Below, in pieces: positions 12,226 to 54,305 of a stretch of 56,943 nt of DNA. A program made the position numbers and the translations under genes. Position 1 is the first letter of the stretch. Every line of letters begins with the position of its first letter. The stretch is from Sphingopyxis sp. GTDB taxonomy: Bacteria; Pseudomonadota; Alphaproteobacteria; Sphingomonadales; Sphingomonadaceae. Under the pieces are notes generated by a model. That model saw only the letters and a program-made list of their open reading frames with translations. It was not told the DNA's origin and made no database searches. The stretch lies in the NCBI GenBank assembly GCA_016793775.1, contig JAEULK010000069.1:1-56943 (forward strand), given 5' to 3'.

Positions 12226-12237
12226 AGTTATACAACT
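12226..12237. promoter_or_regulatory. 12-bp palindromic site (one mismatch)
   Basis: AGTTATACAACT differs by one base from the AGTTATATAACT consensus. It is preceded by TTGACCT. It sits 40 bases from the crotonase start (12185) and 39 bases from the ACAD start (12277), almost exactly midway between the two divergent genes. Confidence 0.8.
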
Positions 12238-12276
12238 CGCTATGACACAGACCCATATGGAGGGGCAAGGCCTGCG

Positions 12277-13371
12277 ATGAATTTCGACCTTAGCGATGAA
12301 CAGAAAATGCTCGGCGAGCAAGCCCGGGCGCTGCTTTCGGACCTGTCGTCCTTCGACCGGCTGCGCAGCCTGATCGATTCGGGCGCCGAATGGGACGAGC
12401 CGCTATGGCGCGCGCTTGCCGAAATGGGCTTCCTCGGCGCGGCAATCCCCGACGAGCATGGCGGTCTCGGTCTCGGCGCGCTCGACCTCGGCGTCATCAT
12501 GGAGGCGCTCGGCGCCGCCAATGCCGCGGTGCCCTTCATGAGCTCGATCATCCTCGGCGCCGAAGCGATCCGGCTGGCGGGCAGCGAGGCGCAGAAGGCG
12601 GCGTGGCTCCCTAAGCTGGCGAGCGGCGAGGCGGTCGCGACCTTCGCTTATGCCGAGGGGCCGGGGCCGGTGTTCGCGCCCGGCGGCACAAGCATCGACA
12701 GCGGCCGGATCAGCGGCAGCAAGACGCCGGTTGCCGATGCGGGGATCGCCGACATTGCGGTCGTGCTCGTCGCCGACGGCAATTTTGCGCTGGTCGAACT
12801 CGACCAGTTGGGGGTGACGCGCACAAAGCTCGACAGCTTCGACCAACTCCGCGCCCACTACCGCCTCGATTTCGCCGATGCCGTGGCAGAGGCGATGCCC
12901 GGCACCGGCAAGCTGGACCGGCTGATCGACCAGGCCGCGGTGCAGGCCGCGTTCGAGGCCGTCGGTGCTGCCGAGGCCTGCCTGGCCATGGCGCGCGACT
13001 ATGCGATGGAGCGCCAGATGTTCGGGCGTCCGCTCGCGGGTTATCAGGCGATCAAGCACAAGCTCGCCGATGTCGCGGTGGCGACCGAGCTCGCCCGCTC
13101 CAACGCCTATTACGGCGGCTGGGCGGCCGAATCTTCGCCCGACGACCTGCCCGCCGCCGCCGCCGCTGCGCGCCTTTCGGGCATCAAATGCCTCGAAATG
13201 GCGGCGCGCGAGAATCTCCAGGTCCATGGCGGCATCGGCTATACCTTCGAGGCGAACTGCCATTTCTATTACCGGCGCGAACGCATGCTCGCGGTGCATC
13301 TCGGCAATCGCGGCTTTTGGGCCGATCGTCTGCTGAACGCGCAGCCCGGCAGCCAGGGAAAGGCGGCGTAA
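12277..13371 (+). CDS. Acyl-CoA dehydrogenase, small subunit type
   Basis: This 364-residue ACAD has no SEPxxGSD signature (FAYAEGPGP at that region) but has the C-terminal VHGGIGYTFEANCHFYYRR motif. It is the small partner of the ACAD that begins one base after its stop codon. The two probably form a heteromeric dehydrogenase. Transcription should start close to the palindrome at 12226-12237. The order small-then-large is shared with the operons at 8846-11142; the pairs at 20209-22405 and 43115-45215 have large-then-small order. Confidence 0.84.
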   Translation: MNFDLSDEQKMLGEQARALLSDLSSFDRLRSLIDSGAEWDEPLWRALAEMGFLGAAIPDEHGGLGLGALDLGVIMEALGAANAAVPFMSSIILGAEAIRLAGSEAQKAAWLPKLASGEAVATFAYAEGPGPVFAPGGTSIDSGRISGSKTPVADAGIADIAVVLVADGNFALVELDQLGVTRTKLDSFDQLRAHYRLDFADAVAEAMPGTGKLDRLIDQAAVQAAFEAVGAAEACLAMARDYAMERQMFGRPLAGYQAIKHKLADVAVATELARSNAYYGGWAAESSPDDLPAAAAAARLSGIKCLEMAARENLQVHGGIGYTFEANCHFYYRRERMLAVHLGNRGFWADRLLNAQPGSQGKAA

Positions 13372-13372
13372 G

Positions 13373-14596
13373 ATGGATTTCAACGACAGCCCGGCCGAAG
13401 CCGCCTTCCGCGCCGAAGCCCGTGCCTGGCTCGCCGCCCATGCTCCCGCGCATATACTCACCCCCGGCGGGAAAATCTCCGATACCGAGGAAGCCGACCG
13501 CGGCCGCGCGTGGATGCGCGAGCTTTACGCCGGCGGCTGGTCGGGGCTGACTTTCCCCAAGGCGCTCGGTGGCCGCGGGCTGTCGGGACCCGAGGCGGTG
13601 ATCTTCGCCGAGGAGGAGGGCAAATATCATCTGCCCAAGGGGCCGTTCACGTCGATCGGCACCGGCATGGCGCTCCCGGTCATCGCGAAGCACGGCACCG
13701 ACGAACAAAAGGCGCGCTTCATCGAGGCGACGCTGAAGGGCGACATCACCTGGTGCCAGCTCTTCTCCGAACCTTCTGCCGGTTCCGATCTCGCGGCGCT
13801 CCGCACCAAGGCGGTGCGCGCCGACGATGGCTCGGGCGACTGGATCGTCAACGGCCAGAAAGTCTGGTCGAGCTGGGCGCATCTGACTGACTGGGGCATC
13901 CTCGTCGTCCGCACCGACCCGACCTTGCCCAAGCACAAGGGGCTGACGTTCTTCGTCGTCGACATGAATACGCCGGGGATCGAGACGCGCCCGATCCGCC
14001 AGATTTCTGGCGCGAGCGAGTTCAACGAAACCTTCCTCACCGACGTGCGCATCCCCGACGCCAACCGCCTCGGCGCCGAGGGCGAGGGCTGGGCGTGCTG
14101 CATGACCGTGCTGATGGGCGAGCGGCTCGGTTCGGGCGCGCACCGCAGCGGAGTCGAACCGCTGATCGATTATGCGGCGTCGACCCCCGACGGCCATGGC
14201 GGAACCATGCTCGACGACCGCGCGATCCGCCAGCTGCTCGCCGAGGCGCTGGCCGACGAGCAGGGCGAACGCTTTTTCCAGGCGCGGCTGCGCACGATGG
14301 TGTCGAAGGGCGAGAACCCCGGCGCGCTCGCGGGCATGGTCAAGCTCGCCTATGCCGGCCGCTATCAGAAGACCAACGGCCTCGCGCTCGAACTGCGCGG
14401 CCTCGCAGGCATCGCGCCCGAGTCGGGGGATACCGCGACGACCGACGTCCAGTACGACTATATCTATTCGACCGTGATGCGCATCGCGGGCGGCGCCGAC
14501 GAGGTGCTGCGCAACCAGATCGCCGAACGCGTGCTCGGCATGCCCGGCGAGGTGCGCATGGACAAGGATGTGCCGTTCGAGACGTTGAAGGGCTGA
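13373..14596 (+). CDS. Acyl-CoA dehydrogenase, large subunit type
   Basis: This 407-residue ACAD has FSEPSAGSDL at residues 131-140, NGQKVWSSWAHLTDWGILVVRTD as the central beta-domain, and MRIAGGADEVLRNQIAERVLGMPG at the C-terminus. It begins one base after the small-subunit gene, which favours translational coupling and a joint enzyme. Family members in such pairs act on acyl-CoA side chains attached to bulky groups. It ends before a double-hairpin repeat that separates it from the convergent ligase. Confidence 0.86.
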   Translation: MDFNDSPAEAAFRAEARAWLAAHAPAHILTPGGKISDTEEADRGRAWMRELYAGGWSGLTFPKALGGRGLSGPEAVIFAEEEGKYHLPKGPFTSIGTGMALPVIAKHGTDEQKARFIEATLKGDITWCQLFSEPSAGSDLAALRTKAVRADDGSGDWIVNGQKVWSSWAHLTDWGILVVRTDPTLPKHKGLTFFVVDMNTPGIETRPIRQISGASEFNETFLTDVRIPDANRLGAEGEGWACCMTVLMGERLGSGAHRSGVEPLIDYAASTPDGHGGTMLDDRAIRQLLAEALADEQGERFFQARLRTMVSKGENPGALAGMVKLAYAGRYQKTNGLALELRGLAGIAPESGDTATTDVQYDYIYSTVMRIAGGADEVLRNQIAERVLGMPGEVRMDKDVPFETLKG

Positions 14597-14601
14597 AAAC
14601 T

Positions 14602-14723
14602 CCCTCCCCTTTAGGGGAGGGTCGGGGTGGGGCATGTCGAGGTTGCGCGAGGCAGCAGGACCCCACCCGCTGCGACTAGGCGGCAAGCCGCCAAGTCTCG
14701 CTGCCCTCCCCTAAAGGGTAGGG
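14602..14723. repeat. Double-hairpin intergenic repeat (copy 2)
   Basis: Hairpins at 14602-14610/14613-14621 (perfect 9 bp, loop TT) and 14704-14712/14715-14723 (one mismatch) flank an 82-base core. Arms of the CCCTCCCCT type and the GGGGCATGTC-like core entry resemble copy 1 at 6654-6751. It lies between convergent genes. Confidence 0.8.
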
Positions 14724-14733
14724 ATAAGCGTGC

Positions 14734-16221
14734 CTAAGCCGCGCGCCGCGCCTCCGCCGCCTTCGCCAGCGGCCCCGCCAGATCCTTCTTCAGGATCTTC
14801 CCGTTCGGGTTGAGCGGCATATGGTCGAGCACGACCAGGGTCCGCGGTACCTTGTTGTCCCCCAGATGCGCCTTGCAGAAAGCGATGATCTCGTCCGCGG
14901 TCGCCTCGCCGCAGCCGGGGCGCAGCGTCACCGCCGCGGCGATATCCTCGCCCAGGACCTCGTGCGGCACGCCGACCACCGCCGCCTGCTGTACCGCTGG
15001 GTGCAGGTGCAGCACGGTTTCGATCTCGAGCGGAGTGATGTTGTAGCCGCCGCGGATGATCAGTTCCTTCGAGCGGCCGGCCATAATCAGGTCGCCGTCG
15101 TCGTCGACGAAGCCCAGGTCGCCGGTCTTGGTCCAGCCGCCCTTGAAGCTCGTCGCGGTGGCCTCGGGATCGTTCCAGTATCGCCGCGTGTGCTTCTGCC
15201 AGCCGTAAATCTCGCCGACGACATTGGCTTCGGTGACGATCTCGCCCGCCTCGTCGCGGATCTGCATATGCGCGGGCAGCTTGCCGACGCAGCCGGGTTT
15301 GAGCACCTGCTCCTGGCTTGTGGTGCCCAGCCCGACCCCGCCTTCGGACATGCCGTAACTGTTGCGGATGCGCAGATGCGGCCACAGCTCGGCGGCGCGC
15401 TTGACCGAATCATGCGGCAACGGCGCGGTGCCGGTCATCAGATATTTGACCCCGTCCATGTCATAATCGCCGACGTCGGGGTGATCGAGCACGAGGCGCA
15501 GCATCGAGGGCACGAGATAGACGAGGTTCGGCCGCTTTGCGCGCGCGAGGTCGAGGAAGCCCTTGGGGTCGAATTTCTGCTGGGTGATCGCGGTTGCGCC
15601 GCCGCGTGCGGGCAGCATCACGATGCCGATATTGCCCCCCGATCCGGTGAGCGGCAACGCATTCAGCGTCGAGCGCGAACGGTCCATATTATAGCCGGTG
15701 ACGTTGGTCATCAAATCGGGGTGCGACACGACGACCCCCTTGATCTTGCCCGTGGTGCCCGAGGTGCCGAGAATTTCGGCGTCGGCATTGGCGTCGAGGC
15801 TCGCCTGGTCGGGCAGCGCGGCAATGTCGCGCGGCATGTCGGCGACGTGCCAGCTTCCCGCGAGGTCGAGCCCCGCGACCAGATCTGGCGCGTCGGTGAT
15901 GCAGAAGCGCGGCGCACACAGCGCGGCATAATCGGCGACCTCGCGCGGGCTCAATCGCGGGCTGATCGGGCAGGCGATGCCACCGGCGCGGAACACCGCG
16001 AACACCGCGATCGCCATCTCGACCGCGTGCGCGTTGCTGATCGGCAGGAACACGCGGTCGCCGGGAACCAGCCCCGCCGCCGCCAGCCCGCCGCCCACCT
16101 CGTCGGCTTCGCGATCCCACTGCGCGAACGTGATCTGCCGCCGGATATCGTCGTGCGCGATGTCGTCGGCCTGATGGCCGGCGCGCACCTTCAAGGCATC
16201 GCTGATGCGGCGAACTTCCAT
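14734..16221 (-). CDS. Acyl-CoA ligase (AMP-dependent synthetase)
   Basis: This 495-residue adenylate-forming enzyme has the ATP-binding loop GTSGTTGKIKGV, the NSYGMSEGG segment, WTKTGDLGFVDDDGDL, the hinge GRSKELIIRGGYNITP and the C-terminal lysine in NPNGKILKKDL. It should activate a carboxylic acid to its CoA thioester through an acyl-AMP intermediate. ATG 16221 follows AAGGGGA. It is divergent from the MaoC-like gene, with the perfect palindrome at 16265-16276 in between, so activation and a later pathway step share a promoter region. The acid is unknown. Confidence 0.88.
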   Translation of the reverse strand: MEVRRISDALKVRAGHQADDIAHDDIRRQITFAQWDREADEVGGGLAAAGLVPGDRVFLPISNAHAVEMAIAVFAVFRAGGIACPISPRLSPREVADYAALCAPRFCITDAPDLVAGLDLAGSWHVADMPRDIAALPDQASLDANADAEILGTSGTTGKIKGVVVSHPDLMTNVTGYNMDRSRSTLNALPLTGSGGNIGIVMLPARGGATAITQQKFDPKGFLDLARAKRPNLVYLVPSMLRLVLDHPDVGDYDMDGVKYLMTGTAPLPHDSVKRAAELWPHLRIRNSYGMSEGGVGLGTTSQEQVLKPGCVGKLPAHMQIRDEAGEIVTEANVVGEIYGWQKHTRRYWNDPEATATSFKGGWTKTGDLGFVDDDGDLIMAGRSKELIIRGGYNITPLEIETVLHLHPAVQQAAVVGVPHEVLGEDIAAAVTLRPGCGEATADEIIAFCKAHLGDNKVPRTLVVLDHMPLNPNGKILKKDLAGPLAKAAEARRAA

Positions 16222-16264
16222 TGCGGCTTAATCCCCTTGCGTCACTCTTGGGGATGTATTACCT

Positions 16265-16276
16265 AGTTATATAACT
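16265..16276. promoter_or_regulatory. 12-bp palindromic site (perfect)
   Basis: AGTTATATAACT, preceded by TTACCT. It lies 43 bases from the ligase start (16221) and 19 bases from the MaoC-like start (16296), between divergent genes. Confidence 0.85.
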
Positions 16277-16295
16277 CGTGACAAGGGAGATAAAG

Positions 16296-17582
16296 ATGGC
16301 CGAGGCGAAAACCGACATCAAAGAGAGCGATGAGTGGCAAAAGGCCGTCGCCTACGAGATTACCGACGCGGATATCGAGCGGCAGCGCAAATTGCTGGGA
16401 TTCGACCAGGCGGCGAAGACGCGCGAATATATCCAGACCGCGACCGAGGACAATATCCGCAACTTCGCGCACGGCATGGGCGACGACAAGCCGCTCTACA
16501 CCGATCCCAACTATGCGAAAAGCACGCGCTGGGGCAGCGTGATCGCACCGGGCATGATGGCGGGCATCATCAACAAGCCGATGAAGGGCGACCCGGTCCC
16601 CGACGAGATTAAGGCGCTCAAGAAGTCCCTGTTCAAGGGCGTCCACGTCTTCGTGTCGGGATCGCAATGGGACTTCTATCGCCCAATCTTTCCGGGCGAC
16701 ACGATCTACAGCTTCAACGGCGACGAGAGCGTCGAGGTCAAGCAGTCCGAATTCGCCGGCCGCTCGGTGATCGGTGTGCGCCGCGACGTGAAGATGAACC
16801 AGCGCGGCGAGGTCGTCGCGGTCTATCGCATCCTGCGCGTGCTCACCGAGCGCAAGACCGCGGTGAAGAAGGGCAAATATTCGGCGATCGAACCCGCCAG
16901 CTATACCGACGAGGAAATGCAGGCGATTGAGGACATCTATGCCGCCGAACGCGTGCAGGGCGCCGAGAAGCGCTGGTTCGAAAGCGTCGAGAAGGGCGAC
17001 TCGGTGGGATTGCAGGCCAAGGGGCCGCTGACCGTCACCGACGTCATCTGCTTCCACGCCGGCGGCTATGGCTTCGTGCCCTATGCGCCGACCGCCAACC
17101 GCCTCGCGCACAAGAACCGCCAGCGTATCCCCGCCTTCTATGTGAAGAACGAGCATGGCATCCCCGACGTCGCGCAGCGGCTGCACTGGGACCCGCTATG
17201 GGCGCAGGCGATCGGCAATCCGATGGCTTATGACTATGGGGTCATGCGCGAAAATTACCTGTGGCAATATCTCAGCGACTGGGCCGGCGACGATGCCGTC
17301 ATCACCCATATCCATGACGAGATTCGCAAGTTCAACTATATGGGCGACGTCCAGCGCGTCACCGGCGAGGTGCTCGCGAAGCGGCAGGAGGGCGGGCAGA
17401 GCCTGGTCGACGTTGCGGTGAAATTCACTAACCAGCGCGACGAGGAAACGGTGCGCGCGACCGCGACGATCGCGCTGCCGAGCAAGACCCGCCCGCAGCC
17501 GCTCTATCCGGCGGTGCCCGAGGAGCTGGCCGAGAAGGCGGTCGCGATGCTGGCGCGCCACCGCGAACTCGGCGGGGATTGA
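16296..17582 (+). CDS. Two-domain MaoC-like (double hotdog) protein
   Basis: This 428-residue protein reads as two hotdog halves. The N-half has GDDKPLYTDPNYAK (residues 62-75), which is the hydratase motif GDxNPLHxD with the catalytic His changed to Tyr68. The C-half has QRLHWDPLWAQ (about 294-304), similar to the RIHYDxxYA element of MaoC halves, and keeps His297. Family members hydrate 2-enoyl-CoA with R stereochemistry or dehydrate 3-hydroxyacyl-CoA; here the activity is probable but not assured. A GTG at 16278 is in frame, but ATG 16296 follows AAGGGAGA. It leads a transcript with two crotonases. Confidence 0.72.
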   Translation: MAEAKTDIKESDEWQKAVAYEITDADIERQRKLLGFDQAAKTREYIQTATEDNIRNFAHGMGDDKPLYTDPNYAKSTRWGSVIAPGMMAGIINKPMKGDPVPDEIKALKKSLFKGVHVFVSGSQWDFYRPIFPGDTIYSFNGDESVEVKQSEFAGRSVIGVRRDVKMNQRGEVVAVYRILRVLTERKTAVKKGKYSAIEPASYTDEEMQAIEDIYAAERVQGAEKRWFESVEKGDSVGLQAKGPLTVTDVICFHAGGYGFVPYAPTANRLAHKNRQRIPAFYVKNEHGIPDVAQRLHWDPLWAQAIGNPMAYDYGVMRENYLWQYLSDWAGDDAVITHIHDEIRKFNYMGDVQRVTGEVLAKRQEGGQSLVDVAVKFTNQRDEETVRATATIALPSKTRPQPLYPAVPEELAEKAVAMLARHRELGGD

Positions 17583-17601
17583 CCGGGCGCAGCTTTACCT
17601 A

Positions 17602-17710
17602 TCTCGTCACCCTGACCTTGTTTCAGGGTCCATGGCCCGACCTCTCCTTCGGCGCTGCGCCCAAGTCGAAGTCCGGCCATGGATGCTGAAACGAGTTCAG
17701 CATGACGAGA
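17602..17710. repeat. Long inverted repeat of sphingomonad type
   Basis: TCTCGTCA (17602-17609) pairs with TGACGAGA (17703-17710), and inside these GTTTCAGGGTCCATGGC pairs imperfectly with GCCATGGATGCTGAAAC. The whole gap between the MaoC-like gene and the next crotonase is this element. Sequences of this kind are scattered through sphingomonad genomes. Confidence 0.75.
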
Positions 17711-17735
17711 AAAAGGCGACGGCCGGGGAGGAAAT

Positions 17736-19323: not shown

Positions 19324-19324
19324 G

Positions 19325-20113: not shown

Positions 20114-20159
20114 CGGCGCCCCATATCATGCTTGTCTCGCTGCACAACATGGTTGACGT

Positions 20160-20171
20160 AGTTATATAACT
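20160..20171. promoter_or_regulatory. 12-bp palindromic site (perfect)
   Basis: AGTTATATAACT, preceded by TTGACGT. It lies 46 bases from the thioesterase start (20113) and 37 bases from the ACAD start (20209), between divergent genes. Confidence 0.85.
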
Positions 20172-20208
20172 CAAGCATAGATTCGCCGACGACAAGGGAG
20201 AGCGAGCG

Positions 20209-21420: not shown

Positions 21421-21421
21421 C

Positions 21422-22405: not shown

Positions 22406-22408
22406 ACG

Positions 22409-27302: not shown

Positions 27303-27341
27303 CGGACACCTCTTGTTTTTGCGAGCTTAGAAGTATAACCA

Positions 27342-27353
27342 AGTTATATAACT
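27342..27353. promoter_or_regulatory. 12-bp palindromic site (perfect)
   Basis: AGTTATATAACT, preceded by ATAACCA, so that three ATAAC/GTTAT half-sites are clustered here. It lies 39 bases from the reductase start (27302) and 16 bases from the flavoprotein start (27370), between divergent genes. Confidence 0.85.
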
Positions 27354-31373: not shown

Positions 31374-32441
31374 TCAGCCGATGAGGCGGATGAGTTTTTC
31401 GGCCTCGGCGAAATTGCCGCGCACCAGCCGGTCGAAAAAGCGCCCGGTCTCGGCGCTGAGGATGCCCTTGGCCGCCTGCGCGACCTTATATTCGAGGATG
31501 CAGCCGCCCTTGAACATCGCGAGGATCAGATAATAGTCGAAGCTCGCCATGTCGCGGCCGGTGCCTGCGGCATAATGCGCCATCAGCGCCTGCCGCGTCG
31601 GCCAGTCCATCACATTGTAGAGCGACTTTTCGGGGATGTGGCCGGGGAAACGCGCGTCGCGGATGCCGTTGCAGAACCACGCGAGGTCGAGCATCGGGTC
31701 GGCGATCGTCGATAGCTCCCAGTCGATCAGCGCGGTGAGGCGGCACGGCGGGTCGAACGCGAAGAGCGCATTGGGCGTGCCGACATCGCCATGGATGATG
31801 CCGGGGCGGAAATCGGCGGGCCGGTTCGCGCGCAGCCAGTCGCGTGCCAGCGCATAGCCGGGCAACTCGCGCCATTCGAAATCATAAAGCTGCTTGTAGC
31901 TTTTGATCTGGCCTTCCCAGCGATCGACCTGGCGCTCTAGGAAGTTGTCGGGCCGCCCGAAATCCTTGAGACCGACCGCCTTGTAATCGACATTGGCGAG
32001 CGCGATCAGCCCGTCGACCATCGCGAAAGGCACCTCGCGGGCGTGCGGCGGTTTGTCGAAGGGCGGGCGGTCGTGGATCCTGCCGTCGGTCAGGTCGGCG
32101 GGCCAGCCGGTGACCAGATCCATGACATAAAAGGGCGCGCCGATGACGTCGGCGTCGGCGCAGCTGCCGTGGCAGACAGGGTGGGGAACAGACGTGCCAT
32201 TCAAGGCGGTGAGCACCCGCGCTTCGCGTAGCACGCTCTTTTCGCTGCCAGGCGGCGGCACGGCAGGCGGACGGCGCAGGATGAGCGTTTCGCCACCGCG
32301 ATTGAGCGACAGGATGACGTTCGACGTTCCGCCATGGATTTTCGCGATCTCGAGTGGCCCGTCGCCGAGCGCCGGGATATGGGCGTCGAGCCACGCCGCT
32401 AGCCGTTCACGGTTCGCCAGCGCCGCCAGTTCGTCGCTCAT
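31374..32441 (-). CDS. APH-family kinase (ACAD10/11 or LvaA-like)
   Basis: This 355-residue protein has the phosphotransferase catalytic loop HGDVGTPN (His217, Asp219, Asn224) and the metal-binding IDWE (Asp240), plus the N-terminal lobe GGTSNVILSL and LRREA-like LREARVLTAL. The family covers aminoglycoside kinases, the kinase half of ACAD10/11 and LvaA, which phosphorylates 4-hydroxyvaleryl-CoA. Adjacency to an ACAD10/11-like protein supports the last two roles, not drug resistance. The start at 32441 overlaps the MarR stop (ATGA), although the frame is open further upstream. Confidence 0.84.
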   Translation of the reverse strand: MSDELAALANRERLAAWLDAHIPALGDGPLEIAKIHGGTSNVILSLNRGGETLILRRPPAVPPPGSEKSVLREARVLTALNGTSVPHPVCHGSCADADVIGAPFYVMDLVTGWPADLTDGRIHDRPPFDKPPHAREVPFAMVDGLIALANVDYKAVGLKDFGRPDNFLERQVDRWEGQIKSYKQLYDFEWRELPGYALARDWLRANRPADFRPGIIHGDVGTPNALFAFDPPCRLTALIDWELSTIADPMLDLAWFCNGIRDARFPGHIPEKSLYNVMDWPTRQALMAHYAAGTGRDMASFDYYLILAMFKGGCILEYKVAQAAKGILSAETGRFFDRLVRGNFAEAEKLIRLIG

Positions 32442-32896
32442 CCCTCGCGCTCCCGCAGATGGGCTTCGATCTCGGTGCGGATCGCGTGCATCCGCGCCGC
32501 CGCGTCGGCAAAGGTCGCGGCGTCGATCCGCGCCATCACCGCGCGCGTCACCGCCTGCGCGCGGGCGTGATCGGCGGCCTTCAGCGCGCGTCCGGCTTCG
32601 GTCGCGACCAGCAGCGAGGCGCGCTTGTGGTCGGGGTTGTCGGCGAAGGTGACCAGGTCCATTTCGGCCAGCCGGTTTGCGGCGCGCTGCATCACCTGTC
32701 GCGGGTGCCCCAGGCTGCGACCGATCTGCGCGACCGTCGGCGGCGTCGCGGCGTTGACCACCGCGGTCAGCACCATCAGCTCCATCTCGGGCAGCCCGCT
32801 CATCGCGCGCGTCTCGGCGAACAGCACGCGCATCCGGCCACGCAGCCGCGCGACCTCGTCGGCGAATCGTTCGAAATCGGGGAAGCGCTCGGACAT
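32438..32896 (-). CDS. MarR-family transcriptional regulator
   Basis: This 152-residue protein has the MarR winged-helix layout: LPEMELMVLTAVVNAATPPTVAQIGRSLGHPRQVMQRAANRLAEMDLVTFADNPDHKRASLLVATEAGRAL, with the recognition helix around GHPRQVMQRAANRL and the wing around DNPDHKRAS, followed by a helical dimerisation tail. It heads the operon with APH kinase, ACAD, hydrolase and SDR, so it probably senses an acyl-CoA or acid of that branch. Inverted repeats directly upstream (32907-32931) suggest self-regulation. The ribosome-binding site is weak. Confidence 0.86.
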   Translation of the reverse strand: MSERFPDFERFADEVARLRGRMRVLFAETRAMSGLPEMELMVLTAVVNAATPPTVAQIGRSLGHPRQVMQRAANRLAEMDLVTFADNPDHKRASLLVATEAGRALKAADHARAQAVTRAVMARIDAATFADAAARMHAIRTEIEAHLREREG

Positions 32897-34213: not shown

Positions 34214-34233
34214 ACACCTCTCCTGTATAACCT

Positions 34234-34245
34234 AGTTATGTATGT
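34234..34245. promoter_or_regulatory. 12-bp palindromic site (degenerate)
   Basis: AGTTATGTATGT keeps eight of twelve positions of AGTTATATAACT and is preceded by ATAACCT, giving ATAAC and GTTAT half-sites around CTA. It lies between divergent SMP-30 (34213, 20 bases) and SDR (34294, 48 bases) genes. Weaker than the other copies. Confidence 0.5.
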
Positions 34246-35672: not shown

Positions 35673-36525
35673 CCGTATCCGCCTTGACGGGCAGGCGGCG
35701 TTCGTCACGGGCGGAGGAGGCGGCATCGGCCGCGCGATCGCGATCCGCCTCGCCGAAGCGGGCGCCGACGTCGCGATCTTCGACATCTTTCCCGAACGCG
35801 CCGACGAAGCCGCCGAACGGGTGCGCGACGCGGGCCGACGGGCGCTGGCGATCGCGGGCGATGTCATGGACAGCGACGCGCTCCGCGCCGCGATCGACCG
35901 GGCGGCGGCAGAGTTCGGCCGCCTCGATATCCTCGCCAACAACGCCGGCGGCGTCTCCGCACGCCCCTTCCTCGAGCAGAGCGAGCGCAGCATGCGCAAG
36001 CATATCGACATCAACCTGATATCGATGCTCGTCGCGACGCAGGCGGCGGCCAAGCATATGGTCGCGGGCGGGCGGGGCGGCTCTATCGTCAATGTCGCGA
36101 GCATCGAGGCAAGCCGCGCCGCGCCCAATTTCGCGGTCTATGCCGCGTGCAAAGCTGGGATGCTCAGCTTCACCAAATCGATGGCGGTCGAACTGTCGGG
36201 CCACGGCATCCGCGTCAACTGCATCGCCCCCGACCACACGATCACCCCCGGCAATCAGGGCAATCGCGCCGGTCCCGTCGATCCGGCGACCTGGAAGCAG
36301 CATGGCCCCGAAGCCGTCGATGCGATGAACCGTCTTATCCCGCTCGGCCGCGAAGGCGTCGATATGGAATGCGGTGACGCCGCGCTATTCCTGTCGAGCG
36401 CGATGGCGAGCTATATCACCGGCGTGCTGCTGCCCATCGACGGCGGTACCTGGGGATCGTCGGGCTGGATACGCGGGCGCGACGGCAAATGGACGCTCAA
36501 CGAAGGATTGTCTTTCGGCGCCTAA
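35665..36525 (+). CDS. SDR oxidoreductase
   Basis: This 286-residue SDR has TGGGGGIG, NNAGG, the NVASIEA serine segment and YAACK as active site. An acidic residue after the second strand (IFDIFPERADE) suggests NAD. A longer C-terminal tail, TWGSSGWIRGRDGKWTLNEGLSFGA, extends beyond the usual DGG. ATG 35665 lies within the end of the preceding gene (eight-base overlap); an earlier in-frame start at 35623 would only add non-conserved residues. It precedes the GntR gene after a 101-base gap without a clear motif. Confidence 0.82.
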   Translation: MTDRIRLDGQAAFVTGGGGGIGRAIAIRLAEAGADVAIFDIFPERADEAAERVRDAGRRALAIAGDVMDSDALRAAIDRAAAEFGRLDILANNAGGVSARPFLEQSERSMRKHIDINLISMLVATQAAAKHMVAGGRGGSIVNVASIEASRAAPNFAVYAACKAGMLSFTKSMAVELSGHGIRVNCIAPDHTITPGNQGNRAGPVDPATWKQHGPEAVDAMNRLIPLGREGVDMECGDAALFLSSAMASYITGVLLPIDGGTWGSSGWIRGRDGKWTLNEGLSFGA

Positions 36526-36626
36526 ATGGAGGAAATATCGGGAACATTGCGGGGTTGCGACAAAGGCCGTAAAGACGCAGCTAGAGAAAAGTCAAACAAC
36601 GCCGGGCAGGGGCAGGATTTGTGAAT

Positions 36627-37397
36627 ATGGAAAATAACGCCGCACGTATCAGGGTGCCCAAGACGTCGGAACTGGTCGCCGACCAGATCCGGGCCCAGAT
36701 CGTGCGCGGCGAACTGAAGGAAGGGGACTCGCTGCCGCCCGAAGGGACGCTGATGGCGACGCTCGGCATTTCGCGGCCGACGCTGCGCGAGGCGTTCCGT
36801 ATCCTTGAGGCCGAAAGCCTGATCAGCGTCGTGCGCGGCTCGCGCAGCGGCGCGCGGGTGCACCAGCCGTCGGTCGAGCTTGTGTCGCGTTACGCGGGCT
36901 ATCTGCTCGAAGCCGGCGGAACGACGATCGCCGATCTTTATGCGGCGCGGCTCGCGATCGAGCCGACGGTGGTGCGCTGGCTTGCGACCGCCAAGGGGCA
37001 GACGCCGGGCTTCGCGCAGGTGCGGCAGATGCTCGCCGAGCTACGGGAGATGCTCAACAGCGAAGGCTATGCCGAGTTCGTCGACAATGTCTCCAACTTT
37101 CACCAGACGCTCGTCGAGGCGACGGGCAACAAGACGCTGAGCCTGATGAACCGCATGCTGCTCAATCTCGGCCGCCATCACCAGAACGACTATCAGCGCC
37201 GCCACCCGCGCACGACCGAGGACAAGTATAAGAGCCTGCGCGCGGGCTTCAAATCCTTTGAAAAGCTCGTCACCTTGATCGAGGCGGGCGATGTCGAGGG
37301 CGCGGTCAACCATTGGCGGCTCCACCTGCGCAACGCCAACGACACCTGGGCGGCGCGCGGCGAGGGCGAGCGGATCGTCGACTCCCTGCACGGATGA
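36627..37397 (+). CDS. GntR-family regulator, FCD (FadR) subfamily
   Basis: This 256-residue regulator has the GntR winged helix (LVADQIRAQIVRGELKEGDSLPPEGTLMATLGISRPTLREAFRILEAESLI) and an all-helical FCD ligand domain with the metal-binding Asp/His pattern (DLYAARLAIEPTVV, FHQTLVEATGNKTL, NHWRLHL). Members sense acyl-CoA or carboxylic acids and usually repress. A GTG at 36621 is possible; ATG 36627 has CAGGA nine bases before it. It overlaps the following ligase by ATGA. It is a candidate regulator for the palindrome regulon, though no site is found before it. Confidence 0.86.
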   Translation: MENNAARIRVPKTSELVADQIRAQIVRGELKEGDSLPPEGTLMATLGISRPTLREAFRILEAESLISVVRGSRSGARVHQPSVELVSRYAGYLLEAGGTTIADLYAARLAIEPTVVRWLATAKGQTPGFAQVRQMLAELREMLNSEGYAEFVDNVSNFHQTLVEATGNKTLSLMNRMLLNLGRHHQNDYQRRHPRTTEDKYKSLRAGFKSFEKLVTLIEAGDVEGAVNHWRLHLRNANDTWAARGEGERIVDSLHG

Positions 37398-42484: not shown

Positions 42485-42506
42485 CTTCTCTCTCCCATTG
42501 ACGTAA

Positions 42507-42522
42507 GTAAACGATGGTTTAC
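42507..42522. promoter_or_regulatory. GTAAACGATGGTTTAC inverted repeat, probable TetR operator
   Basis: Perfect 6-bp arms GTAAAC and GTTTAC enclose GATG. TTGAC and GTCAA lie further out at 42499 and 42530. The site is 23 bases from the P450 start and 25 bases from the TetR start, in the middle of the 62-base divergent gap. Confidence 0.75.
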
Positions 42523-42546
42523 ATAGTGAGTCAACGGGGAGAGTTT

Positions 42547-43107
42547 ATGGAAACGATGATCGAAGCACCGGCCCGCGACGCCGACCGCACCCGCGCAGCA
42601 ATTCTTCGTGCTGCGCAGCAAGTCTTTGCCGCGAAAGGCTTTGCCGAGGCGAGGGTGCGCGACATCACCGCGCTCGCGGGGGTCAACCCGTCGCTGGTCA
42701 GCCGCTATTTCGGCGGCAAGCTGAAATTGTTCGAGGCCGCGCTCGACGCGGCGCTCGACCCGCGGCTGATGACCGACCTGCCGAAGGACGAGTTCGGCAA
42801 GATGATCGTCGCGCGCTTCGCCGATGAGGACGACCGTATCAGTCCGCTGCCGATGATGTTCAGCGCCGCTGCCGACAGCGAGGCGCGCGCGATCGCGCAG
42901 CGCCTGCTCCGCGAGCGCGTGTTCGAGCCGCTCAAGCACTGGTTCGGCGGCGGCGACGCCGATGTGAAGACGGCGCGCTTCATGATGGTCTCGCTCGGCT
43001 TCTTCGCCTACCGCGACCAGCTCCCGCTCGCCGAATTCGCCGGCCGCGTCGAACCGAGGCTGCGGCAATGGCTCGAATGCGAGTTCCAGGCCATCGTCGA
43101 CGACTGA
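42547..43107 (+). CDS. TetR-family transcriptional regulator
   Basis: This 186-residue protein has the TetR N-terminal helix-turn-helix: RTRAAILRAAQQVFAAKGFAEARVRDITALAGVNPSLVSRYFGGKLKLFEAAL, followed by an alpha-helical ligand domain. GGGGAGAG precedes ATG 42547; the open frame begins further upstream at 42514 inside the operator region. Divergent placement and the inverted repeat between suggest that it represses the P450 operon and itself. Its stop lies seven bases from the stop of the convergent ACAD. Confidence 0.87.
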   Translation: METMIEAPARDADRTRAAILRAAQQVFAAKGFAEARVRDITALAGVNPSLVSRYFGGKLKLFEAALDAALDPRLMTDLPKDEFGKMIVARFADEDDRISPLPMMFSAAADSEARAIAQRLLRERVFEPLKHWFGGGDADVKTARFMMVSLGFFAYRDQLPLAEFAGRVEPRLRQWLECEFQAIVDD

Positions 43108-43114
43108 CATCGCA

Positions 43115-44059: not shown

Positions 44060-44063
44060 GCGC

Positions 44064-46881: not shown

Positions 46882-46882
46882 C

Positions 46883-47662: not shown

Positions 47663-47698
47663 CTCCACTCCCATTTTCTTTGTGACAGGGCTTGCACG

Positions 47699-47710
47699 AC
47701 ATATATAACT
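47699..47710. promoter_or_regulatory. 12-bp palindromic site (two mismatches)
   Basis: ACATATATAACT on the plus strand, that is AGTTATATATGT on the minus strand, with GACTT before it on that strand. It lies 36 bases from the enoyl-CoA hydratase start (47662) and 36 bases from the SDR start (47747), exactly midway. Confidence 0.68.
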
Positions 47711-47746
47711 AAGTCAATTACGTCGAACGGCATGGGGAGAGACGAA

Positions 47747-49272: not shown

Positions 49273-50771
49273 TGGCGCTGATGACCGAAAAACTGCGCGC
49301 GATCATGGCGCTCGATCCCGACCGGACGCAGATCGACTTCGGCGGCACCGACTATAGCTGGCGCCAGATCGCCGACACGGTCCGCGCGATCGAGGCCACG
49401 CTCGATACGATGGGCTTGCCCGAGGATGCCCGCATCGGCGTGATGCTGCGCAACCGCCCAGGCCATGTCGCGGCGATCGTCGCGGTGCTCTCGACCGATC
49501 GCTGCCTCGTGACGCTCAATCCGATCCTGCCCGACGCGATGCTGTTCGCCGACGTCGAAACTCTCGGCCTGCCGGCGATCATCGCCGACGCCACCGACTT
49601 CGCGCGCGCCGGCCTTGCCGAAGCGCTCGCCCGCGCCGGTTCCGCGATCATCGAGATCGATCCGCATCTGGCCGGCGTTCGTGTCGTGCAGGGCGCGGTC
49701 CGCACCCATATCCAGACATCTCCGGGCGTAGCGATCGAGATGCTCACCAGCGGCACGACCGGACCGCCCAAGCGCGTGCCCCTGAGCCGCGACGCCTTCG
49801 ACGCCAGTTTTCGCGGGTTCACCAGATATGAACGCGGGCGCAGCTTCGACGATCCGCCGCGGCTCAATTCGGGCTGCACGATGGTCGTCAATCCGCTCAC
49901 CCATATCGGCGGCATCTATGGCTGCATCGGCGCGCTCGCGGCGGGACGGCGGATCGCGCTGCTCGAAAAATTCAGCGTCGAGGCCTGGGTGTCGGCGGTG
50001 CGCCGCAACCGCCCCGCGGTCGCCTCGGCGGTGCCGTCGGCGGTGCGCATGCTGCTCGACGCCGACGTCGATCCCGCCGACCTCGCCAGCCTCAAATCGC
50101 TGATCACCGGCACCGCGCCGCTCGCGCCCGATCTCGTCGACGCCTTCATGGCCAAATATGGCATCCCGATCTGCAGCAATTACGGCGCGACCGAGTTTGC
50201 CGGCGCGATCGCGGGCTGGACGATCGACGATTTCCGCGCGCTCTGGCCGGAAAAGCGCGGCGCCGTCGGCCGCGTCCACGCCGATATCGAGGCGCGCATC
50301 GTCGATGCCGCAAGCGGCGCGATCCTGCCGCACGGCGCCGAAGGCTTGCTCGAGATCAAGGGGCGGCAACTGGGCAACGCCCTGCAATGGCTGCGCACCA
50401 CCGACCGCGCGCTGCTCGACGAGGACCGCTTCCTCTTCATCAAGGGGCGCGCGGACAATGCGATCATCCGCGGCGGCTTCAAGATTCATCCCGACGATGT
50501 CGTGGCTGCGCTGGGCGACCATCCGGCGATCCGTGAAGCCGCCGTCGTCGGCGTCCCGGACGAGCGCCTCGGCGCGGTCCCCGCCGCCGCGATCATCCTC
50601 AAGGACGGCGTCCCCGCGCCTGCGCCCGACGACCTCAAGGCGTGGCTCAAGGACCGGTTGATCGCCTATCAGGTCCCGGTCCTTATCCGCATCGTCCCCG
50701 ACTTCCCGCGCACCCCATCGATGAAACCCTCGGCACCCGGGCTGCGCGAACTGTTTGCAGGAGAGAGCTGA
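49272..50771 (+). CDS. Acyl-CoA ligase-like protein (AMP-dependent synthetase)
   Basis: This 499-residue adenylate-forming protein has the ATP-binding loop LTSGTTGPPKRV, SNYGATEFAG and the hinge GRADNAIIRGGFKIHP. Two motifs are altered: the usual RTGD is LRTTDRALLDEDRF, and the C-terminal lysine is in TPSMKPSAPGL instead of a SGKI-type motif. It probably still activates an acid, but these changes deserve a caution. The start shares one base with the SDR stop, and its own stop shares one base with the next start. Confidence 0.82.
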   Translation: MALMTEKLRAIMALDPDRTQIDFGGTDYSWRQIADTVRAIEATLDTMGLPEDARIGVMLRNRPGHVAAIVAVLSTDRCLVTLNPILPDAMLFADVETLGLPAIIADATDFARAGLAEALARAGSAIIEIDPHLAGVRVVQGAVRTHIQTSPGVAIEMLTSGTTGPPKRVPLSRDAFDASFRGFTRYERGRSFDDPPRLNSGCTMVVNPLTHIGGIYGCIGALAAGRRIALLEKFSVEAWVSAVRRNRPAVASAVPSAVRMLLDADVDPADLASLKSLITGTAPLAPDLVDAFMAKYGIPICSNYGATEFAGAIAGWTIDDFRALWPEKRGAVGRVHADIEARIVDAASGAILPHGAEGLLEIKGRQLGNALQWLRTTDRALLDEDRFLFIKGRADNAIIRGGFKIHPDDVVAALGDHPAIREAAVVGVPDERLGAVPAAAIILKDGVPAPAPDDLKAWLKDRLIAYQVPVLIRIVPDFPRTPSMKPSAPGLRELFAGES

Positions 50772-51589
50772 TGGAAAGCTTCGCCGGAAAATCGGTGATC
50801 GTCACCGGGGGCGGCAAGGGGGTCGGGCGCGGTATCGCCGAAGCCTTCGCTGCCGCCGGGGCCGAGGTGATGCTCGGCGCACGGACCATCTCCTACGCCG
50901 AGGATGTGAAGGCGGGGATCGAGAAGGCGGGCGGCATCGCCGAATGTTTCGCCGCCGATATCGCGAAACATGCGGATTGCCGCGCACTCGTCGCGACGAC
51001 GGTCGAGGCGTTTGGCGGAGTCGATATCGTCGTCCACGCCGCCGCCGACATCCCGCACGGCGGACTCGGCCATGTCGACGACGAGCGGCTCGAAGCGGGC
51101 TTCGCGAGTATTGCCAAGGCGGCCTGGTGGCTGCTCGATGCGGCGCGCCCACATCTGGCAAACGCTCGCGACGGGGGGCGCTTTATCGCGATCGGCTCGA
51201 TCAACGGCACCTTCAACGTCGTCCCCAACATGACGGCTTATGGCATGGCGAAGGCCGCGCTCGATGCCTTCATCCGCGCCGCCGCGGGCGACGTCGTCGG
51301 CGAGGGCATCACCGTCAATGCGATCAACCCCGGCCTCGTCGCCAGCGACCGCGCGAAGGCCGTGCTCGGCGACGAAGGCCTCGCCGCTTATGGCGCGACC
51401 GTGCCCGTCGGCCGCGCGGGCACGCCCGCGGACATCGCCCACGCCGCGCTGTTCCTCGCCTCGGCGCGCTCGGACTATATCACCGGCACCACGATCAAGA
51501 TGGACGGCGGCTCGACCGTCGCGGCTTCGCCGGGACGCAACGACATTTTGCAGGATCGGCTCAAGCTCCAGCACGGAAAGGCCCCCTGA
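50771..51589 (+). CDS. SDR oxidoreductase
   Basis: This 272-residue SDR has TGGGKGVG, VHAAADIP in place of the NNAG motif, AIGSINGTF and YGMAK as active site. The DGG motif is followed by a 20-residue tail STVAASPGRNDILQDRLKLQ. The open frame extends upstream through the ligase end, but ATG 50771 with GGAGAG fits. It is cotranscribed with the ligase (TGATG) and the next SDR. Confidence 0.81.
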   Translation: MESFAGKSVIVTGGGKGVGRGIAEAFAAAGAEVMLGARTISYAEDVKAGIEKAGGIAECFAADIAKHADCRALVATTVEAFGGVDIVVHAAADIPHGGLGHVDDERLEAGFASIAKAAWWLLDAARPHLANARDGGRFIAIGSINGTFNVVPNMTAYGMAKAALDAFIRAAAGDVVGEGITVNAINPGLVASDRAKAVLGDEGLAAYGATVPVGRAGTPADIAHAALFLASARSDYITGTTIKMDGGSTVAASPGRNDILQDRLKLQHGKAP

Positions 51590-51590
51590 C

Positions 51591-52385
51591 ATGGACCTCG
51601 GGATCAAGGGCAAGGTCGCATTGGTATTCGGCGGCTCCAAAGGCATCGGCCTCGGCTGCGCGCACGAATTTGCGCGCGAGGGCTGTCGCGTCGTTATCGC
51701 CGCGCGCACCCAATCCACCATCGACGCTGCGGTCGCCGAGGTACAGTCCGCGGACGGGCAGGCGATCGGCATCTCCGCCGACTGCACGACGAAGGACGGC
51801 ATCGGCCAGGCAGTGCAGGCGGCGACCACCGCCTTCGCTCCACCCGACATCCTGATCTTCAACGTCGACTCCGGCCCCAAGGGCAGTTTCCTCGAGGTTA
51901 ACGACGACACCTTCGCCGCCGCGAACACCAACAATGTCATGGCGTTCCGCTGGGCGGTGCAGGCGGTGATCCCGCATATGCAGAAACAGGGCTGGGGCCG
52001 CATCCTCACCATCGGCACCAACTCGGTGAAGGCGCCGCACCGCAAGCTCGCGCGCGCCGCGCAGAACACCTACCGCGTCGGCGCGCTCGCGCTGTCGAAG
52101 ACGATCTCTGCCGAGCTCGGCCCGATGGGCATCACCGTCAACAGGCTCGGCACCGGCGCCATCGCGACGCCGCAGTTCAGGGACGTCTTCACGAAGATCG
52201 CCGAGGCGCAGGGCCAGACCTATGACGAGCATATCGCCCAGCGCACTGCCGCCTATCCGATCCCGCGCATGGGCACGCCCGAGGATATGGGCGCCGCCGC
52301 GGCCTTCCTCTGCTCCGATCGTGCGGGCTTCATCACCGGCCAGGTTCTCGTGATCGATGGTGGCAATCTCGAAGTTCTGCAATAA
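51591..52385 (+). CDS. SDR-family protein with altered active site
   Basis: This 264-residue protein has VFGGSKGIGLG and the final DGGNLEVLQ of an SDR. At the active site APHRKLARAAQNTYRVGALALSK has Gln and Arg where Tyr and Lys normally stand, and the NNAG motif is FNVDSGP. This resembles the SDR subgroup with LxxSNxxRxxL instead of YxxxK. Catalysis may use other residues or be lost. ATG 51591 lies one base after the preceding stop. Sixth position in a run of SDR and ligase genes. Confidence 0.77.
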   Translation: MDLGIKGKVALVFGGSKGIGLGCAHEFAREGCRVVIAARTQSTIDAAVAEVQSADGQAIGISADCTTKDGIGQAVQAATTAFAPPDILIFNVDSGPKGSFLEVNDDTFAAANTNNVMAFRWAVQAVIPHMQKQGWGRILTIGTNSVKAPHRKLARAAQNTYRVGALALSKTISAELGPMGITVNRLGTGAIATPQFRDVFTKIAEAQGQTYDEHIAQRTAAYPIPRMGTPEDMGAAAAFLCSDRAGFITGQVLVIDGGNLEVLQ

Positions 52386-52406
52386 TTAGCTATCAAAGGA
52401 ACCGAT

Positions 52407-53201
52407 ATGAAATTGGGAAGTGACATTGCGGCGGTAGTGACGGGCGGTGCCTCGGGCCTCGGCCGCGCCAGCGCCGAGGCGCTGGCAAGCGAAGGCGTCA
52501 AGGTCGCGATCTTCGACGTCAACGAAGAGGGCGGCAAGGCGGTGGCCGACGCGATCGGCGGCATATTCTGCAAGGTCGACATAACCAGCGAAGACAGCGT
52601 CGTTGCGGGCTATGATGCCGCCCGCGCTGCGCACGGCCAGGAACATATCCTCGTCCATTGCGCGCAAATCTCGAAGGGCGGCAAGACCGTCCGCTTCGAC
52701 AAGACGACCGGGGGCTATGTCCGCTACGCGACAGAGGATTATGCCTTCTCGGCGCAGGGCATCCTGATCGCCAGCTATCGGCTCGCCTCGCTCGCTGCGC
52801 TCGGCATGGCGAATGCCGAGCCGCTCAACGAGGATGGCGAGCGCGGCGCGATCGTGCTCACCGCCTCGGCGGCGGCGCAGGACGCGCAGATCGGGCAGGT
52901 CGGTTACGGCTCGCTCAAGGCCGGGGTGAACGGCCTCGTCCTGCCGATGGCGCGCGACCTGATGGACCTCGGCATCCGCGTCAATTCGATCATGCCCGGC
53001 ATCTTCGCCACCCCGCCGATGCTCGCGGTGAAGGACAAGGCGCCCGCGATCTTCGAGGGTCTTGCCGCCTCGGTGCCGTTCCCCAAACGCCTCGGCCATC
53101 CGCACGAGTTCGGCAGCCTCGTGCTCGAACTTGCGCGCAACGGCTATTTCAACGGCCAGACGCTCCGCCTCGACGGCGCGATCCGCATGCCCCCCAAATA
53201 G
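52407..53201 (+). CDS. SDR dehydrogenase, HSD10-like
   Basis: This 264-residue SDR is the paralogue of the 8051-8833 protein: TGGASGLG, TASAAAQDAQIGQVGYGSLK with the serine and YxxxK, and ARDLMDLGIRVNSIMPG, ending LDGAIRMPPK. It should oxidise 3-hydroxyacyl-CoA with NAD. The most marked difference is in the substrate loop near residues 195-215 (FATPPMLAVKDKAPAIF versus FSTPLVAGLPEPVLASL), so the two copies may prefer different chain ends. It starts 21 bases after the previous stop and has AAAGGAA before the ATG. Confidence 0.85.
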   Translation: MKLGSDIAAVVTGGASGLGRASAEALASEGVKVAIFDVNEEGGKAVADAIGGIFCKVDITSEDSVVAGYDAARAAHGQEHILVHCAQISKGGKTVRFDKTTGGYVRYATEDYAFSAQGILIASYRLASLAALGMANAEPLNEDGERGAIVLTASAAAQDAQIGQVGYGSLKAGVNGLVLPMARDLMDLGIRVNSIMPGIFATPPMLAVKDKAPAIFEGLAASVPFPKRLGHPHEFGSLVLELARNGYFNGQTLRLDGAIRMPPK

Positions 53202-53211
53202 GATCGATGAT

Positions 53212-54231
53212 TTGAACGCACCCCAGCAATTCCCCTTCGCGCGCCACTCGGCGGGGCCCGCCCCGCTCCGCCGCCCGGGCTCGATCCGCCGCACCAGCTC
53301 GATCGATTCCGACTGGCCCGACGGCTTCGGCCAGCCATGGATCATGTCGGGGTGCGTGCGCGACCTGCTGACGCCGTTCGAAGGAAAACCCGTCGCGCTC
53401 GCCAGCGGCGAGTTCCGTATCCGCACCTCGCCGATCCGCGAGATCATGGAGATCGACGTCGCGCCGCATCATGCGCGCGCGCAGGAGATGGTCGGGGTGC
53501 GGGCAGGGGGCGCGAGCCGGCAGGCGCTGGCGGCGACGCTCGGCGACCTGCGCGGGACGCCGCTGTTCCAGCTGCTCGACGATTTTGCCGGCGCCAGCCT
53601 CGTCGCCGGGTGGATATGGTCGCGCTGGGCGCCCGACTGGCACGAGCGGATGCGTGCGAACCGTGAGAAATTGGGAGCGGGCAGTAAGGGGCGGATGGTC
53701 AATATCTGCACCGGCTTCACCGAGGGCGGCAGTTCGCTCTCGGACGACGGCGATGTCGATCATAGCGATCAGTCGGCGACCGAGGTTGGCCCGCTCGCCA
53801 ACCCCGACGATCCCGCCGGCTGGCATGAGCTGCCGGTGCAGGAGGGGCGCCCGCTCGCCCGCCGCGCTCGCCGCATCGACCTTTGGCGCGCCGAGGGGGT
53901 GATCAAGGTCGACGCGGGGTTTCAGGACAGCGGCCCCAACCCGCAGGGCACGCGCACCGCGATCCACGAATATCGCGTCTATGCCGAAATCGACGAGGCG
54001 AGCGGCACCCTGCTCGCGCTCCAGGCCTTGCCGCTGATCCTGCCGTTCCGCGAATGCCCCGGCGCCTCGATGAAGGCGGCGCGCATGGTCGGGCAGAATG
54101 TCGGGGAATTCCGCCAGGCGGTGCTCGACACGCTCGTCGGCACGATCGGCTGCACCCATCTCAACGATGTGCTGCGCGCGCTGGCCGATATCCCGCCGCT
54201 CGCAGCGATGTTGCCCGAAAACCACGACTGA
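53212..54231 (+). CDS. DUF2889-type protein, function unknown
   Basis: This 339-residue protein begins with the family-typical RRPGSIRRTSSIDSDWPDGFGQPWIMSGCVRDLLT and has two strand-rich parts with no signal peptide or membrane segment. I assign it to the DUF2889 family from this N-terminus. The only start that keeps the conserved segment is TTG 53212, with AGGA upstream; the first ATG (53344) would remove it. It follows the HSD10-like gene after 10 bases. Its co-occurrence with ligases and SDRs suggests a role in CoA catabolism, which is not known. A gap of 118 bases separates it from the receptor. Confidence 0.68.
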   Translation: MNAPQQFPFARHSAGPAPLRRPGSIRRTSSIDSDWPDGFGQPWIMSGCVRDLLTPFEGKPVALASGEFRIRTSPIREIMEIDVAPHHARAQEMVGVRAGGASRQALAATLGDLRGTPLFQLLDDFAGASLVAGWIWSRWAPDWHERMRANREKLGAGSKGRMVNICTGFTEGGSSLSDDGDVDHSDQSATEVGPLANPDDPAGWHELPVQEGRPLARRARRIDLWRAEGVIKVDAGFQDSGPNPQGTRTAIHEYRVYAEIDEASGTLLALQALPLILPFRECPGASMKAARMVGQNVGEFRQAVLDTLVGTIGCTHLNDVLRALADIPPLAAMLPENHD

Positions 54232-54293
54232 CACCGTTTCCGTAGCGTTTCATGACAAATTGACGCAATCCACTTGTCTGACGTGTTAGACTT

Positions 54294-54305
54294 AGTTATA
54301 TAACT
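54294..54305. promoter_or_regulatory. 12-bp palindromic site (perfect) before the receptor
   Basis: AGTTATATAACT, preceded by GACTT, ends 44 bases before the receptor start. A weaker inverted pair GTCT/AGAC (54276-54291) lies just upstream. This is the only copy not between divergent genes, and links uptake to the catabolic genes. Confidence 0.85.

Follow-up and report, generated by a model that had tools for sequence, protein, structure and literature searches.

The question raised by this stretch of DNA is why a short palindrome recurs at the promoters of its catabolic genes and which protein binds there. The window was contig C36, 56,943 nt in full, of a Sphingopyxis sp. assembly of 3,928,115 bases in 106 contigs (below, C, G and L numbers denote contigs, genomes and loci, respectively). 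An earlier note made from the letters of this window had proposed that the 12-mer AGTTATATAACT is the single operator of a regulon joining uptake, CoA activation, dehydrogenation, hydration and thioester hydrolysis, a proposal well supported here by conservation, clustering and specificity. In the best explanation, the seven sites are very probably operators of one regulon bound by a dimer of GntR1, a regulator of the FCD subfamily of GntR proteins encoded in the same window.

On recounting, the 12-mer was intact at 16265, 20160, 27342 and 54294 and, as the note had stated, differed by one base at 12226 and by two at 47699, whereas the copy at 34234, given four mismatches in the note, had three. 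An additional three-mismatch copy at 36409 lay within a short-chain dehydrogenase/reductase (SDR) gene, with the operator flank absent. Pfam assignments and start codons agreed with the placement of the seven copies at six divergent promoters and before the gene for a TonB receptor, and each copy ended no more than 50 bases from a start codon, as had been claimed. Sequences with at most one mismatch numbered five in the window versus none in 100 shuffles, and those with at most three mismatches numbered eight versus a shuffle mean of 0.98 and a maximum of 4. The scan of the complete 3.93-Mb genome with one mismatch allowed, proposed in the note as a check, gave six perfect copies (four in the window, C35:4626 and C52:18731), 0.0013 being expected under a dinucleotide model, and three one-mismatch copies (C36:12226, C35:2595 and C92:11173). 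All six perfect copies were at promoters of catabolic or uptake genes.

GntR1 possessed an N-terminal GntR winged helix (Pfam PF00392, E 3.7e-17, above the curated cut-off) and a C-terminal all-helical FCD domain (PF07729, E 4.3e-19). Its predicted model (predicted local distance difference test score 86) was helical in the C-terminal part, and the listed Foldseek matches were mostly GntR proteins with template modelling scores of 0.34-0.57, low values that indicate family membership only. Palindromic motifs were learned by expectation maximization (EM) from the 230 nt upstream of GntR1 homologues outside Sphingopyxis (L159-L211), the 53 loci being reduced to 44 sharing no 24-mer and the seeds being random words from these, none from the window; L141-L158 (Sphingopyxis or near, some being metagenome-assembled genomes (MAGs) otherwise labelled) and L212-L219 (too distant) were omitted. 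The best motif, at width 19, was TATntAACtaaGTTanATA, with a log-likelihood ratio of 212 versus 38-52 for 12 Markov-shuffled sets, and it reached at least 12 bits in 28 of the 44 upstream regions. In the window, the top seven matches to this motif were exactly the seven reported sites (20.7 to 26.4 bits, Table 1), while the eighth match had 15.4 bits and the maximum over 50 Markov nulls was 15.7 bits. The link of the element to GntR1, as predicted by sequence comparison, comes from evidence independent of the window.

A survey of upstream regions covering 77 of 79 loci (L156 had no upstream sequence and L217 duplicated L215) found no strong site directly before the GntR1 gene in the 15 best-matching loci (L141-L155). 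The note had stated that neither its GntR nor its MarR candidate has the site before its own gene; this holds for the position directly before GntR1 in Sphingopyxis, but the site at 34224-34242 heads both strings, one comprising 34294 (SDR), 35166, 35623 (SDR) and 36621 (GntR1) and the other 34213 (SMP-30), SnoaL and 32438 (MarR). Outside Sphingopyxis, the 28 of 44 homologues mentioned above had a site of at least 12 bits directly upstream of their own gene. The GntR1 gene is thus predicted to be under its own operator at 34224.

What the sites had in common was an odd palindrome of 19 bp, TATnnnAC-nTA-GTTATATA, whose centre lies one base to the left of that of the 12-mer. Before the 12-mer, the aligned sites kept AC at -4/-3 and T at -1 and tended to TRT at -10 to -8; the TTGAC or ATTAC-like bases that the note saw preceding the 12-mer are present but belong to the left half of this larger element. 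The three bases AST, with which the 12-mer ends, formed a third box beside the 19-mer. Of 53 sites with 14 bits or more in 10 fetched stretches, 37 had a full AST on one side, versus 2.5% of random positions; this share is overstated, since AST was part of the pattern with which the stretches were fetched. The 12-mer as operator unit was replaced by the 19-mer because palindromic EM peaked at width 19, the widths run being 17, 18, 19 and 20 only, with width 12 not among them. The copies at 34234 and 47699, weak as 12-mers, scored strongly in the 19-bp register (22.8 and 23.3 bits), and the recognised unit is read as an element of 19-22 bp offset from the 12-mer. A rule by which the asymmetric flank would always point to the regulated gene was dropped as uninformative at divergent promoters; at the promoters of GntR1 itself, the third box tended toward the far side.

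At least one perfect 12-mer was carried by 15 of 48 genomes of the genus (own included), namely 14 with the island regulator and G027, whose lone copy, scoring under 15 bits, was attributed to chance; four of 31 more distant genomes carried one perfect copy each. When flanks were compared in related strains, as the note had suggested, the sites recurred at orthologous promoters of other Sphingopyxis. Stretches were fetched from 11 relatives carrying island sites and, as a twelfth, from G027; for two of the 14 island-bearing genomes with perfect copies, G009 and G019, the assessment used the positions of the matches alone. In G044, G012, G035 and G001, the sites corresponding to C36, C35 and C52 lay in one stretch of 72-75 kb; C36, C35 and C52 are therefore read as a single island of about 75 kb, inside which the window ends because of assembly breaks, the contigs being continuous in relatives. 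Orthologous genes at conserved sites mostly shared 60-98% identity, some being absent or matched only by paralogues, and the site was still present where the TonB receptor shared 39% identity (G010, G043 and G018). An equivalent of the 34224 site with at least 21 bits lay between the SMP-30/MarR and SDR/GntR sides in ten relatives (G044, G012, G035, G001, G010, G043, G026, G031, G037 and G030). In G037, the hydratase/dehydrogenase divergon had moved far from the island (C2:1715918) with its site kept and flanked by 88% homologues of both window genes. G017 had two sites (C1:537326 and 537368) before a TonB-dependent receptor gene (Pfam); its product had no match of more than 45% identity to the window receptor, so that orthology is not established. 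The sites thus occurred at functionally linked promoters only and were conserved in relatives, as expected of one regulon.

The occurrence of the element followed that of GntR1. Of 48 Sphingopyxis genomes, 15 had a close GntR1 orthologue (at least 65% identity), as did six of the 11 genomes from other genera that had been chosen for the motif; the 15 comprised the 14 with perfect 12-mers and G017, which carries the extended motif. The extended pattern ACNTAGTTATAYAAST was present in 13 of 397 genomes of the family, five of them outside the genus with 2-7 copies each, whereas its reversed control gave 3 single matches. It occurred in 8 of 8 genomes with an orthologue of at least 65% identity versus 5 of 389 others, of which G396, G255, G197 and G115 had 48-53% homologues and G265 had none. 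Fisher tests, which ignore shared ancestry, gave p values of 9e-14 (family) and 4.5e-10 (genus, table 14/1/1/32). Copies of GntR1 with 65-86% identity were also seen in three MAGs labelled Gammaproteobacteria or Rudaea (L149, L162 and L178), where either mis-binning or horizontal transfer would account for them. S. panaciterrae DSM 27164 encodes a GntR1 of 88% identity.

Among solved structures, the best match to the GntR1 profile (E 1.4e-17) was NanR (6on4, 6wfq), the GntR/FCD sialic acid repressor of E. coli, which was also the top Foldseek match of the GntR1 model. According to the available part of its description, NanR is a repressor with its operator inside the promoter, and the three repeats of that operator have half-sites GGTATA, close to GTTATA here (PMC8012715). 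The NanR operator consists of direct repeats, whereas the core here is an inverted repeat. GntR1 lacked the full set of NanR-type metal ligands (Asp172, His176, His222 and His244 in NanR): His161 and His235 were kept in 28 of 28 aligned sequences, and none of the 28, GntR1 included, had Asp where NanR has Asp172 or His where it has His222. Against the NCBIfam NanR model NF003011, GntR1 scored 105 bits, the cut-off being 260. DhdR, the GntR-type D-2-hydroxyglutarate repressor of Achromobacter denitrificans, represses the promoter of its own gene and has a footprinted operator, GTTATCAGATAAC, with the same half-site GTTAT, as given in the accessible part of the report (PMC8651671); its half-sites face inward with 3 bases between, whereas those here face outward, ATAAC-N3-GTTAT. 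In the portion available of a survey of regulons of the FadR subfamily, which has an FCD-type C-terminal domain as does GntR1, one site in a divergon usually serves both operons, and additional half-sites are reported 7-12 nt from the centre (Suvorova et al. 2015, PMC4494728).

Several observations weigh against GntR1 as the binder. Sixteen of the 44 homologue upstream regions scored below 12 bits. The exact extended pattern was found in only 4 of 16 family genomes with 47-56% homologues, although weaker sites were found by profile in most of the 16. G265 had a single motif copy without a GntR1 match, and G432, with a 50% homologue, had no site above the null (15.0 versus 15.5 bits). G022, G023 and G040 had GntR1 relatives of 38-45% identity, taken as paralogues, without a perfect 12-mer, and the Sphingopyxis profile hardly separates the candidates because island genes co-occur there. 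The central AC-N3-GT of the operator also falls outside the usual consensus of the FadR subfamily, TKGT/ACMA with 3 or 2 nt between GT and AC, for which NanR and BioR are named as exceptions in the part of the survey available (PMC4494728). The remaining point concerns GntR2, a second GntR/FCD protein whose gene on C35 was out of the note's sight and which might be the main binder or bind the same operators together with GntR1. An operator copy ends about 55 nt upstream of its gene, its helix-turn-helix region is 42% identical to that of GntR1 over 50 residues, and it was matched in 20 of 21 genomes with close GntR1 (all 15 Sphingopyxis, G392, G441, G369, G428 and G133), so that it could share or own the site there. 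The best site upstream of GntR2 ranged from 7.8 to 24.5 bits in 15 of 15 loci listed, four being below 14 bits. However, the GntR2 matches, 24 among the 54 genomes searched when those of 40-44% identity in G318, G375, G422 and G417 are included, never occurred without a GntR1 homologue, and 13 genomes with a GntR1 homologue (47-66%) had no GntR2 match at E 1e-25. In 12 of these 13, an operator near GntR1 exceeded the locus null maximum (20 nulls each), marginally so in G269 (17.5 versus 17.0 bits); the best sites of G396, G269 and G419 had been in the EM training and the other nine had not. In nine of the 12, a site scoring 25.8-27.0 bits lay some 1.2 kb upstream of GntR1; in eight of these nine, it was directly followed by an open frame recognised by eye as acyl-CoA dehydrogenase, with Pfam agreeing in G197 and G395; other sites in these genomes preceded an alpha/beta hydrolase, a thiolase, an enoyl-CoA hydratase and a TonB receptor gene (one each by Pfam). 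Given the sites in genomes without GntR2, GntR1 is taken to bind the sites, and GntR2 to be one of its targets and perhaps a further binder; that GntR2 is the main binder, or that both proteins bind the same operators, is considered decidedly unlikely.

Of the two candidates named in the note, GntR fitted and MarR did not. Binding by the MarR (32438) or the TetR (42514) regulator is very improbable, although both are encoded in the island and the MarR gene stands in the string behind 34224. Among the 21 genomes with close GntR1, MarR had no match at E 1e-20 in seven (G017, G030, G392, G369, G428, G133 and G419) and TetR none at E 1e-30 in four (G369, G428, G133 and G419), absences limited in G030, which is 73% complete, and in G419, a 350-contig assembly. 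Both were rejected as binders because they are absent from some site-bearing genomes and, for TetR, because of a conserved palindrome at the start it shares with P450, GTAAAC-N4-GTTTAC, which is probably its own operator. A further island TetR (TetR_C_38) was seen in the relative G044 (L036 2357-3070), with no operator of at least 15 bits near it among the sites listed. The repeat is similar to -10 sequences of the TATAAT type and is found close to start codons, but a promoter element or chance AT-rich sequence served by no dedicated protein is hardly credible, given six perfect copies at catabolic promoters versus about 0.001 expected, the absence of a perfect copy from 33 of 48 genus members, the palindromic form, and its being common to GntR promoters in other genera. 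Some GntR proteins are activators, and reading the sequences by eye revealed no -35/-10 pair with a constant spacing to the sites. That GntR1 binds but activates is nevertheless unlikely, because the 19-mers end 4 to 51 nt from start codons (alternative starts counted) and so overlap or follow likely core promoters, and since two GntR relatives whose operators have been studied, NanR and DhdR, act as repressors as far as the sources cited above describe them.

In the proposed mechanism, a GntR1 dimer would occupy the 19-bp odd palindrome, and an adjoining third half-site would give the 12-mer its own symmetry. Bound GntR1 would cover the start regions of the divergent catabolic operons, the TonB receptor gene and its own operon, and would most likely block transcription; blocked promoter access is the usual mode of repression and fits the operator positions here. 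Release would be brought about by a pathway intermediate, plausibly a CoA thioester as judged from the target genes, a metal-bound carboxylate being less likely because two of the four zinc ligands of NanR are absent. A more specific form of this mechanism is tentative and rather doubtful: it combines outward half-sites, ATAAC-N3-GTTAT, and an overlapping third one with the lack of a NanR-type metal set, a CoA thioester from an undescribed polycyclic-isoprenoid pathway, and GntR2 either controlled or competing. In that form, two dimers may share three half-sites because the third overlaps the outward-facing pair.

Table 1. Putative operators and related features of the window and of C35; bit scores refer to the motif learned from promoters of GntR1 homologues outside Sphingopyxis
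Feature	Position	Strand	Flanking genes or description	Score or evidence
Operator	12216..12237	+	enoyl-CoA hydratase (start 12185 or 12209, -) / acyl-CoA dehydrogenase pair (12277, +)	19-mer 12216-12234 plus third box ACT; 20.7 bits; conserved in relatives
Operator	16255..16276	+	AMP-dependent CoA ligase (16221, -) / MaoC/FAS1-dehydratase-like (ATG 16296, +)	26.4 bits, top window match; conserved
Operator	20150..20171	+	4HBT-type thioesterase (20113, -) / acyl-CoA dehydrogenase (20209, +)	20.9 bits; conserved
Operator	27332..27353	+	zinc-type dehydrogenase (27302, -) / nitronate-monooxygenase-like (ATG 27370, +)	24.7 bits; conserved
Operator	34224..34245	+	SMP-30/SnoaL/MarR string (34213, -) / SDR/GntR/CoA-ligase string (34294, +)	19-mer 34224-34242; 22.8 bits
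Operator	47699..47720	-	enoyl-CoA hydratase (47674 or 47662, -) / SDR (47747, +)	23.3 bits; perfect 12-mer at same promoter in G037, G043, G010, G018
Operator	54284..54305	+	before TonB-dependent receptor	24.9 bits; conserved
TonB-dependent receptor	54341..56764 (ATG 54341 or 54350)	+	regulon target	Pfam
GntR1	36621..37397	+	FCD-subfamily GntR regulator, predicted binder	Pfam, profile, motif from homologue promoters
GntR2	C35:2661-3356 (L010)		second divergent GntR/FCD protein	FCD 3.2e-8, GntR 6e-7
MarR-family regulator	32438..32896	-	in string behind site 34224	judged from its profile not to be the binder
TetR regulator	42514..43107	+	divergent from P450, own palindrome	not the binder
Palindrome GTAAAC-N4-GTTTAC	42507..42522		P450/TetR divergent start	same in 11 of 11 Sphingopyxis clusters listed

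Outside the window, the site at C35:4626 was at a thiolase-like gene, that at C35:2595 between a GntR/FCD gene and an amidohydrolase gene facing each other, and that at C52:18731 at two facing CoA ligase genes. The C92:11173 site (L012 9664-9685, 21.2 bits) lay outside the island by an SDR gene neighbouring MaoC and thiolase genes, which may form a satellite operon of the regulon. Two lower matches in the window were not counted as operators, one within a gene (25241, 15.4 bits) and one on the TetR start (42515, 12.3 bits). The sequence GTCTGACGTGTTAGAC at 54276-54291 overlapped the left half of the TonB-receptor operator; in the relative G031, its equivalent had two 7-base arms perfectly inverted, GTCTAAC-GT-GTTAGAC.

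The island contained paired acyl-CoA dehydrogenases, thiolase-like proteins, for one of which the best solved match was the lipid-transfer protein 6ok1, and a ChsH2-type OB-fold partner. These contents suggest that the pathway degrades the side chain of a compound that is steroid-like or another isoprenoid, perhaps a polycyclic one. Two P450s and no Rieske or ring-cleavage dioxygenase were found among 50 proteins checked, the whole genome not having been searched for one. KstR and KstR2 are TetR repressors of actinobacterial steroid catabolism, one repressor serving each large CoA-thioester island; the present system resembles them in having a single predicted repressor for such an island and differs in protein family and operator. 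Nothing on this regulon or its substrate was found in the open-access literature, most subscription papers being outside its reach; the 12-mer appeared there only in unrelated mouse work, and GntR is not mentioned in the main texts, as available, of PMC12175502 and PMC12882949.

The type of system, a repressor with its regulon, is ordinary, while the operator is unusual and the pathway uncharacterised. The analysis provides a predicted master switch, an operator and a target list for a catabolic island of about 75 kb that is common, in whole or in part, to genomes of Sphingopyxis, Novosphingobium and Blastomonas type, and the operator sequence enables a search for regulon members beyond the island. 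A non-canonical candidate operator is thereby added to the GntR/FCD family, and one predicted switch is tied to a whole uncharacterised degradation pathway of sphingomonads.

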